64,000 nucleotides of DNA, taken from the NCBI RefSeq assembly GCF_002287925.1, contig NZ_CP016769.1, positions 806,001 to 870,000 on the forward strand. The letters run 5' to 3'. This stretch comes from Candidatus Planktophila lacus. Its GTDB lineage: Bacteria > Actinomycetota > Actinomycetes > Nanopelagicales > Nanopelagicaceae. Under the pieces are notes generated by a model, which worked only from the letters and a program-made list of their open reading frames with translations, was not told where the DNA came from and made no database searches. This document shows, piece by piece, positions 9,465 through 34,574 of this stretch. The position numbers and the translations under genes were made by a program. Each line of letters begins with the position of its first letter. The first letter of the stretch is position 1.

Positions 9465-9640
9465 CTTCGCAGGTACCTACAACTAAATAGCAATACTTTC
9501 TCTTGAGGGGAAGTCGGTGAAAATCCGACGCTGACCCGCAACCGTAAGAGTTCCATGGCGATAAACGCGCCATTAGAACTTAAGTCGGATTACCTCACTA
9601 GAAAGCGTAATTGACCAACACCCGCCGAGGTTTGCGGGGC
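9465..9640 (+). promoter_or_regulatory. Cobalamin (B12) riboswitch
   Basis: This element fills most of the 330-base gap between the reductase and the next gene. Conserved pieces in order are: AGGTACC near 9470; GGGGAAGTCGGTGAAAATCC (9507-9526); GCTGACCCGCAACCGTAAG (9530-9548); and the B12-box variant AAGTCGGATTACCT near 9581-9594. Downstream, CCCGCCGAGGTTTGCGGG forms a hairpin. TTGCGGG (9632-9638) is complementary to CCCGCAA (9535-9541), matching the known kissing-loop contact. ATTGCTAT (9437-9444) can also pair with ATAGCAAT (9487-9494), a possible alternative fold. Cobalamin binding should repress the downstream secreted protein and ECF transporter. Confidence 0.93.
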
Positions 9641-9725
9641 GTAGTCTCAAGAAAAAGTAGATTCAATACTTTTATTGCGCTACCCCTGTGAGACTCTGAA
9701 TTTCAAGAGAGGCTCCACAGTAAAA

Positions 9726-31565: not shown

Positions 31566-32388
31566 GAAGAAAGTCCGTTGTTCCAGGAACTACTGAATAC
31601 TTTTCAAGATCGGTAATTCCAACAGAAGCTAGAACTTCATCATCTACGAAGAAGTTTCCAGTGCAGTCCTTGGATTCGCGATTTAGAATTACATAAGCGG
31701 CATCAGCCAGTATCTCTGGCGTTCTGCAAGCAGCAGTATCAACGCCAGGAATCATCTGCAGCGCAGCTGTGTCGATCGCCGTGCGTGGCCAGAGAGCATT
31801 AATGGCGATTCCAGTTTTGCGGAACTCCTCTGACATTCCAAGTACGCACATCGACATTCCGTACTTTGCCATTGTGTATGCGACGTGATGTTGGAACCAC
31901 TTTGCCTTCATGGAAAGCGGTGGAGAGAGCGTGAGAATGTGAGGATTGCGCCCAGCCTTTGCCGACTCGCGAAGATGCGGGATCGCAGCCTGTGAAGTTA
32001 AAAAAGTACCGCGCACATTCACATCGAACATCAAATCAAAACGCTTGGCTGGTGTTGCCTCTGTTGGCGTTAAATTGATGGCGCTTGCGTTATTTATCAA
32101 AATATCGATGCCACCGAACTCTTGCGCTGCCTGATTTACAGCAGCTGCAATTTGCTCTTCATCTCTTAAATCGCATTGGATCGGTAGCGCCACTCCACCA
32201 GCATCACGAATTTCTTGGGCAGCAGAGTGAATCGTGCCAGGCAGTTTCGGATTAGGTTCAGATGTCTTGGCTGCGATTGCAACAGATGCGCCATCGCGCG
32301 CTGCACGTAGGGCTATCGCTAGACCGATGCCTCTCGAACCTCCAGTAACAAAGATTCGCTTTCCTGAAAGATCTCCAGAGATTGTCAT
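31546..32388 (-). CDS. Short-chain dehydrogenase, HSDL2-like
   Basis: A 280-residue SDR. Cofactor motif GGSRGIGLAIALRAARDGASVAIAAK, NNASAINLTPTE, and catalytic Tyr-Lys in VAYTMAKYGMSM. It resembles the SDR domain of HSDL2-type proteins closely (for example the GTIHSAAQEIRDAGGVALPIQCDLRDEEQI region and the ALWPRTAIDTAA and ADAAYVIL segments), without the C-terminal SCP2 domain. The substrate is probably an acyl or lipid compound, by analogy. The ATG overlaps the stop of the enoyl-CoA hydratase gene (TAATG). Confidence 0.9.
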   Translation of the reverse strand: MTISGDLSGKRIFVTGGSRGIGLAIALRAARDGASVAIAAKTSEPNPKLPGTIHSAAQEIRDAGGVALPIQCDLRDEEQIAAAVNQAAQEFGGIDILINNASAINLTPTEATPAKRFDLMFDVNVRGTFLTSQAAIPHLRESAKAGRNPHILTLSPPLSMKAKWFQHHVAYTMAKYGMSMCVLGMSEEFRKTGIAINALWPRTAIDTAALQMIPGVDTAACRTPEILADAAYVILNRESKDCTGNFFVDDEVLASVGITDLEKYSVVPGTTDFLLDFFLD

Positions 32389-33131
32389 TACTTACCCTTC
32401 TTAGCCATAAAGTTCATAAACGCTTCCATCGCTTCTTCGGATTGAAGGGCGAGTGAGAAGAGCTCAAATTCTGCTTTCATAACTGCGGCAACGGCATCGT
32501 GCTTGCTCGCCTTCAAAAGCGCCTTGGTGTTGATCATCGCTTGTGGTGGTTGCTCCGAAATATGAGTTGCGATTTCCAGAGCCTCACGTAAAGGATCAGA
32601 TGCAATCGATGCAACTAGCCCCATCTCTTTCGCGCTATCGGCGTCAAAACTTTCTCCGGTCATAAATATCTTCGCAGCTCTTTGATATCCAACCAAAAGT
32701 GGAAAGAGATAACTTGAGCCCGCTTCTGGAACCAATCCAAGGGATGCAAAAGGCATCGAAAACTTCGCGCTCGGTCCCGCGACTACAACATCGCAATGCA
32801 ACAACATCGTTGTTCCAACTCCGACGGCATTTCCCTTTACTGCGGCGATTAGCGGTTTTGGAAACTCGAGTAGCGAACCAAGAAAACGAGCAACGTCACT
32901 GTCTTCATTAGTTGGTGGATTAGCTAAAAAATCTGCAATGTCATTCCCTGCGGTGAAATGATCGTCCTCAGAAGTGATGATCAATGCGCGAACTCCAAAG
33001 TCGCCGGCCGCCTCATTTAGCCCATTTGCAAGGCCCGCATACATCTCACGTGTGAGCGCATTCATTTTTTCGGGGCGGTTAAAGGAGAGGATCTGTATCG
33101 ATCCCTCACGCCGGCTGGTGATTTGATCCAT
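32388..33131 (-). CDS. Enoyl-CoA hydratase/isomerase family protein
   Basis: A 247-residue crotonase-fold protein. The CoA oxyanion-hole segments FTAGNDIADF and AVKGNAVGVGTTMLLHCDVV are clear. It may hydrate enoyl-CoA or isomerise; the second catalytic acidic residue region LGLVPEAGSS is present. First gene of the ECH-SDR-GNAT unit, overlapping the SDR by one base. TAGTAT ends six bases before the ATG, so the transcript is likely leaderless. Divergent from uraA. Confidence 0.9.
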   Translation of the reverse strand: MDQITSRREGSIQILSFNRPEKMNALTREMYAGLANGLNEAAGDFGVRALIITSEDDHFTAGNDIADFLANPPTNEDSDVARFLGSLLEFPKPLIAAVKGNAVGVGTTMLLHCDVVVAGPSAKFSMPFASLGLVPEAGSSYLFPLLVGYQRAAKIFMTGESFDADSAKEMGLVASIASDPLREALEIATHISEQPPQAMINTKALLKASKHDAVAAVMKAEFELFSLALQSEEAMEAFMNFMAKKGK

Positions 33132-33160
33132 GCCCGAATACTACTCGCCAGTAAAACTAA

Positions 33161-33305
33161 GACTCACCAAGGTTTAAGTCGCCTGAACCTCATAAGTGAG
33201 TCGTACCCTTAAGCATTCCCTGAAACTTCCCCAGCAAAGAGGGCCCACGCTCGGTGGACCTTCCTTAAGCGCCATTACCGTCTGCGGTAATCGGAAAGGA
33301 AGACA
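33161..33305 (+). ncRNA. Structured 5' leader of the uraA gene, candidate cis-regulatory RNA
   Basis: Several helices can be drawn by eye. GACTCAC (33161-33167) pairs with GTGAGTC (33196-33202), enclosing AGGTTTA/TGAACCT (33170-33176/33184-33190, one G-U). ATTACCG (33274-33280) pairs with CGGTAAT (33285-33291). This last hairpin is enclosed by CTTCCTT (33260-33266) pairing with AAGGAAG (33296-33302), which contains the Shine-Dalgarno of uraA. GGGCCCAC/GTGGACC forms another hairpin just before. Not matched to any riboswitch I know; ligand unknown. It could also be a protein-bound leader. Confidence 0.5.
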
Positions 33306-34574
33306 ATGTCGTTACTTTCATGGAAGCTCCACGGAAACGGAAAGAGTGTATCTGCTGGAGGAGTCGTATCAACAGATGAAAGACTTACTTGGCCTCGCAC
33401 AATCGGAGTCGGTCTACAACATATCGCTGCGATGTTTGGTGCAACGTTTCTAGTTCCGATTATTACTGGCTTCTCCCCTACAACAACTCTCTTCTTTTCA
33501 GGAATTGGAACCATCCTCTTCCTAATAATCACCAAAAATAGAGTTCCAAGTTATCTAGGTTCATCCTTCGCATTTCTAGGGCCGATCGCAGCAGCAATGA
33601 CAGCAGCTGGAACTGGTGGCGGAATGGCAGCAGCACTTGGCGGAATCGTCTTCACTGGTGTAGTTCTCGCCTTGGTTGGTCTGGCCGTTCGTGCAGCAGG
33701 AATTGGTTGGATTAACTGGCTACTTCCACCAGTTGTAACTGGAACGATCGTTATGTTGATCGGTTTCAACTTGGCAGGTGCTGCAAAAGGTAACTTCACC
33801 AAGGAACCACTAATTGCGATCATTACGCTTGCGAGCATCGGTGTAATCGGTGCATTCTCAAAAGGCTTTATGAGCCGCATCAGTATCTTCTTGGGGCTTG
33901 TTGTTGGATATCTCGTCGCGCTAGCCATGGGCGATGTCGATACAAAGGGAATCTCAGCAGCTGCTTGGTTCGACACCCCAACATTTACAACACCAACATT
34001 TAGCACCAACATCATGATCCTCTTCTTACCTGTCGTTCTTGTTTTGATCGCAGAGAACGTCGGCCATGTTAAGGCTGTAGCTGCGATGACCGGAAAAGAT
34101 CTAGATGATCAAATGGGCAATGCGCTGATGGCAGATGGACTTGCAACAACTGTTGCTGGTTTTGGTGGTGGCTCTGGAACAACTACGTATGCAGAAAATA
34201 TTGGAGTAATGGCGGCAACTCGCGTTTACTCAACTGCTGCATATTGGATCGCTGGCGTTGGAGCAATCTTGCTATCGCTATCACCAAAATTTGGCGCAGT
34301 TCTAAGCGCTACTCCTGCTGGTGCCCTAGGTGGCGTATCAACAGCGCTCTTCGGAATGATCGGCATCTTGGGTGCGAGAATTTGGATCGAGAGCAAAGTT
34401 GATTTCTCTAACTCAACCAACCTACTGATTGCAGCATCTGCTCTAATCATGGGTATTGCTGACTATTCATGGACCCAAGGCGATTACACCTTCACAGGTA
34501 TCGTCAACGGAACGCTCGTTGCTGTAATCGGTTATCGAGTGCTCCATGCAATTTCGAAAGCTCGGGGCAATTAG
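33306..34574 (+). CDS. uraA: Uracil/xanthine permease, NCS2 family
   Basis: A 422-residue proton symporter for nucleobases with 14 helices expected. GLQHIAAMFGATFLVP (helix 1), the substrate-binding glutamates in VLIAENVGHVKAVAAMTGKDL and GTTTYAENIGVMAATRV, and the ALGGVSTALFG end segment match UraA closely. Uracil is the most likely substrate, though xanthine relatives are similar. The Shine-Dalgarno AAAGGAAG is four bases from the ATG and can be sequestered by the leader. A strong terminator follows. Confidence 0.93.
   Translation: MSLLSWKLHGNGKSVSAGGVVSTDERLTWPRTIGVGLQHIAAMFGATFLVPIITGFSPTTTLFFSGIGTILFLIITKNRVPSYLGSSFAFLGPIAAAMTAAGTGGGMAAALGGIVFTGVVLALVGLAVRAAGIGWINWLLPPVVTGTIVMLIGFNLAGAAKGNFTKEPLIAIITLASIGVIGAFSKGFMSRISIFLGLVVGYLVALAMGDVDTKGISAAAWFDTPTFTTPTFSTNIMILFLPVVLVLIAENVGHVKAVAAMTGKDLDDQMGNALMADGLATTVAGFGGGSGTTTYAENIGVMAATRVYSTAAYWIAGVGAILLSLSPKFGAVLSATPAGALGGVSTALFGMIGILGARIWIESKVDFSNSTNLLIAASALIMGIADYSWTQGDYTFTGIVNGTLVAVIGYRVLHAISKARGN

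Follow-up and report, generated by a model that had tools for sequence, protein, structure and literature searches.

The question raised by this locus is whether the 145 bases ahead of a nucleobase permease gene (33161-33305) form one structured RNA leader, as a sequence-only reading had proposed, or a composite of promoter DNA and a shorter transcribed leader. The gene in question (33306-34574, + strand of the window, i.e., the whole 64,000-nucleotide stretch of DNA that was analyzed) codes for a 422 aa NCS2 nucleobase:cation symporter, a uraA/rutG-like permease (Pfam PF00860, E=1e-80) that scores above the cut-off for TIGR00801 and below those for the RutG and UraA equivalogs; we refer to it here as uraA. 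Its ATG at 33306 is preceded, 3 nt upstream, by the Shine-Dalgarno (SD) sequence AAGGAAG (33296-33302, + strand). On its other side lies a divergent gene coding for an enoyl-CoA hydratase homolog (32388-33131), a leaderless gene with a -10 box of its own, TAGTAT (33138-33143, - strand). Briefly, we favor, with reasonable though far from complete confidence, an interpretation in which a divergent promoter leads into a short leader that masks the SD. Here, a promoter with the -10 box TACCCT (33204-33209) would start the permease mRNA near 33215, and the resulting leader of ~91 nt would hide the SD via either CUUCC (33226-33230) or CUUCCUU (33260-33266), thereby holding down or gating translation of the permease. 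The position of the promoter, the complementarity between the 5' end and the SD, and their coevolution are comparatively supported at the sequence level; a lowering of translation by the masking, and its regulation, are inferred.

The case for the promoter begins with the genes of the window itself. Nineteen of its 64 predicted genes have a TANNNT hexamer starting 12-13 nt ahead of the ATG, as against about one gene for each of the other positions; this count also shows that the initial description of most genes here as leaderless was too strong. TANNNT at this spacing is the published leaderless signal of Actinobacteria (PMC3160421), and the -10 sequence and spacing in the window agree with it; unlike the leaderless genes described there, uraA retains a 5' leader and an SD. 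Within the intergenic region no other + strand TANNNT is found between the divergent gene and the TACCCT at 33204 (+ strand), which recurs in the promoters of the uraA family. Across the orthologs from the genus and the family, this hexamer behaves like a TANNNT promoter element: T1, A2 and T6 are held, the middle three bases are free to vary, and the spacing is that of a promoter; while the -10 caller used for the ortholog promoters itself demanded TANNNT, the same pattern is seen in unforced alignments. In these orthologs, the length from T1 to the ATG ranges from 44 to 131 nt, and upstream DNA elements occur at a fixed spacing from the -10, namely CGACTCGCC in the clade of the window species and GTGGCGTAC-N6-GTA in other clades. 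As the -10 box lies inside 33161-33305, the most likely start of the uraA mRNA is near 33215, predicted from the spacing of the -10 (T1 +11 to +13, as in leaderless genes), with a predicted transcribed leader of about 91 nt (33215-33305, + strand). Reiterative transcription on T-runs was also considered as a candidate and rejected: these runs sit downstream of the -10 and still ahead of the predicted start, and, thus, would not be transcribed.

This placement recasts the structural features that first drew attention to the region. The pairings named by the sequence-only reading are indeed present, both by sequence and by folding: a stem GACTCAC/GTGAGTC surrounds AGGTTTAA/TTGAACCT to form nested helices (33161-33202), and CTTCCTT (33260-33266) can pair with AAGGAAG (33296-33302) to enclose ATTACCG/CGGTAAT. 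Folded as one piece, the 145 nt have an MFE of -43.5 kcal/mol (z = -2.27, with equally good folds in 6 of 200 shuffles). What does not stand is their unity as a single RNA, since the -10 box falls within them. The fold of the 5' 43 nt has a z of -3.7 against mononucleotide shuffles in the window species and stands out only there; among nine clade relatives, aligned gap-free and anchored on the -10, 41% of the pairs of this 5' domain are able to form, as compared to 34% at random positions, which leaves these stems without the covariation on which their proponent had staked them. Given that 33161-33202 is both upstream of the -10 and unconserved, we read these nested inverted repeats as promoter DNA rather than RNA; hence, the first third of the 145-base region is probably not transcribed.

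Relatives point to a further layer in this promoter DNA. Of 128 promoters, 74 carry a TAC-N6-GTA dyad in the 70 bp upstream (1.4 on average in shuffles). Dyad and -10 tend to be 6, 15-17 or 25-26 bp apart, i.e., in steps of one helical turn. Such steps are what a DNA-binding protein would need, as opposed to an RNA aptamer, and, thus, speak for an element acting as DNA rather than RNA. Exact searches with GTGGCGTAC-N6-GTA recovered at most one occurrence per genome of the genus, almost always at uraA, and it looks like a putative site for a dedicated transcription factor; the divergent promoter probably has a protein operator in relatives. We also observed the form GGCGTGGCGTAC-N6-GTA before uraA genes of the family (e.g., L056, L075 and L189), 6, 16 or 26 bp from the -10. 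Separately, repeated TCGATATATCGA palindromes are present ~100-190 bp before uraA in many relatives from the genus (L041, L056, L151 and others) and absent before uraA of the window species.

Turning to the transcribed part, the SD of the window species has two potential partners. CUUCC near the 5' end (33226-33230, + strand), which emerges both from folding and from the family statistic detailed below, is the family-type anti-SD and can pair with GGAAG at 33298-33302. The alternative internal partner, CUUCCUU (33260-33266, + strand), occurs only in the window species and its closest relatives. The inner hairpin AUUACCG-UCUG-CGGUAAU (33274-33291, + strand) is recovered by folding and is kept in a varied form in one relative (L035). 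When folded from the predicted start, the leader surpasses shuffles by just 1.2 sd. For the window species, SD-masked folds have energies of -32.5 and -32.4 versus -30.3 for the SD-open fold, a separation of ~2 kcal/mol that shifts with the amount of coding sequence included; the overall MFE of the leader, -34.7, uses neither of the SD helices in full. Folding models, thus, indicate a masked state that is marginally stable in this species. An upstream open reading frame was considered as well and rejected, the sole one present being a GTG frame of 4 codons. A second TANNNT, TACCGT (33276-33281), with a sequence conserved only in the closest relatives, is situated within the inner hairpin and could give rise to a leader of 18 nt that lacks the masking.

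The wider comparison covered 128 leaders or promoters overall, and 74 distinct leaders, related by descent, in the test of SD complementarity. Around the predicted start, the 15 nt at the 5' end can form helices averaging 4.68 bp with the SD of their own gene, as against 3.74 bp in shuffles of these 15 nt (Wilcoxon P=2.6e-7, n=74, with P values overstating independence because the leaders are related to one another); there is no such excess in the leader windows 10-25 and 20-45, nor in the DNA upstream of the -10. When SDs are swapped between leaders the value falls to 4.27, and none of 5000 permutations reach the mean observed for the native pairs. Likewise, CTTCC occurs in 33 of the 74 first-15 windows where 3.1 are expected, and nearly never further down the leader. 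The pairing helix mostly starts at +2 to +4 of the transcript; the masking strand in relatives is at +2 to +9 and is usually CCUUCCCC, with GGAAGG as its partner, and, beyond the nearest relatives, this 5'-end strand takes the place of CTTCCTT. The two partners also change jointly, with combinations such as CCUUCC/GGAAGG, CAUUCC/GGAAUG and AAUUCC/GGAAUU. Thus, comparison of the sequences supports the co-variation of a 5'-end anti-SD with the SD across the family. The proposal that the leader sequesters its SD, accordingly, survives as a family theme, in that the leaders complement their SD more than chance would allow, and is marginal in the window species, whose particular CTTCCTT hairpin is shared by its nearest relatives only.

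The family is far from uniform. Leader sequences are not conserved between subclades; a similarity search with the leader DNA in 60 relatives gave a match only at the gene-proximal end, and RNA alifold on whole upstream regions, run per subclade, recovered no structure common to the subclades. Several subclades leave the SD unmasked, and in some the 5' hairpin ends just before it. One of these latter 5'-terminal hairpins, in one subclade, shows covariation beyond shuffles (0/500), and the covariation score of the SD helix within the window's clade is at the shuffle level. It is against this backdrop that the main rival has to be weighed, namely that the 5'-terminal hairpin only stabilizes or insulates the mRNA, without any switch, its overlap with the SD arising as a by-product wherever a 5' end rich in pyrimidines meets an SD rich in purines. 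Consistent with this, most subclades have 5'-proximal hairpins, whether or not these include the SD, and the mean SD pairing over all 128 leaders, 0.70, is barely higher than the 0.66 of shuffles. Base composition, however, does not explain why it is at the 5' end alone that complementarity outdoes shuffles of matched composition, nor why it tracks the gene's own SD; we, hence, hold this rival to be unlikely, albeit deserving of serious attention. Another possibility, the one originally entertained for this region, is that 33161-33305 make up a riboswitch of a new kind that binds a metabolite; it would share with the purine and xanthine riboswitches its place ahead of a nucleobase permease. 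The stable fold in the window species and the identity of the gene fit it; however, its 5' third is unconserved and sits upstream of the -10, the leader has no Rfam match at the gathering threshold (and only noise, E 8.6-9.1, at a relaxed E<=10), and neither a conserved unpaired core of the kind expected of an aptamer nor a combination of such a core with covarying stems was found across the uraA homologs. The riboswitch reading is accordingly not supported, and we regard it as very improbable.

Regulation by PyrR, binding the leader to repress translation, was the other possibility raised at the outset. The genome does encode PyrR (G000:C1:759621-760124, L180; 222.9 bits over a cut-off of 138), and the leader of pyrR itself starts with CCCGUCCUGCGAGGCGGG directly ahead of its SD, a perfect PyrR loop in the manner of the PyrR-binding leaders of actinobacterial pyr operons, which served as a positive control. 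In contrast, none of the 149 regions searched upstream of uraA contains the loop consensus UCCNGNGAGG; a canonical PyrR site at uraA is therefore not supported, and we regard control of the leader by PyrR as very improbable. A parallel comes from Enterobacteria, where a 5'-terminal hairpin sequesters the SD of pyrC and pyrD, and where nucleotide-sensitive start-site choice operates at the 5' end of pyrC. In the uraA leader, as in these, the SD of a pyrimidine-related gene finds its partner at the extreme 5' end of the message; the uraA case differs in that the gene is a permease of Nanopelagicales-type actinobacteria, and CTP-controlled start switching is probably a further difference. Were such a choice at the pyrimidine-rich 5' end of uraA to decide whether the anti-SD is included, one would point to the anti-SD beginning at +2 to +4, right after the predicted purine start; however, the sequence beyond the anti-SD offers no other start whose spacing from the -10 would be sensible, and we consider this quite improbable. 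A search of the literature on pyrC start switching and on uracil regulation in Nanopelagicales yielded nothing usable. More ambitious, and in our estimate doubtful, is the notion of a family-wide switch in Nanopelagicales-type actinobacteria, wherein pyrimidine nucleotides would set the exposure of the anti-SD, through start-site choice or an RNA-binding factor, in concert with a transcription factor that reads the TAC-N6-GTA dyad at its spacings of 6, 16 or 26 bp to the -10.

If the reading as a divergent promoter with a short SD-masking leader is right, then a false riboswitch candidate stands corrected, and the alignment of orthologous upstream regions on their -10 boxes offers a means of separating promoter DNA from leader RNA. 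It would also furnish a testable model for how nucleobase uptake is limited in abundant freshwater actinobacteria, in which many genes are leaderless. Outside uraA, TACCCT-N-CCTTCCCC has a few matches, which come without the GGAAGG partner and include one at an HTH/RodZ-like gene in one genus. In that related genus, the HTH/RodZ-like gene (L278-L281) has TACCCT and then CACCTTCCCC ahead of it. Elsewhere in the window, an AdoCbl (cobalamin) riboswitch was detected at 9482-9649, just upstream of the ORF at 9675, with 52.4 bits against a gathering score of 50.
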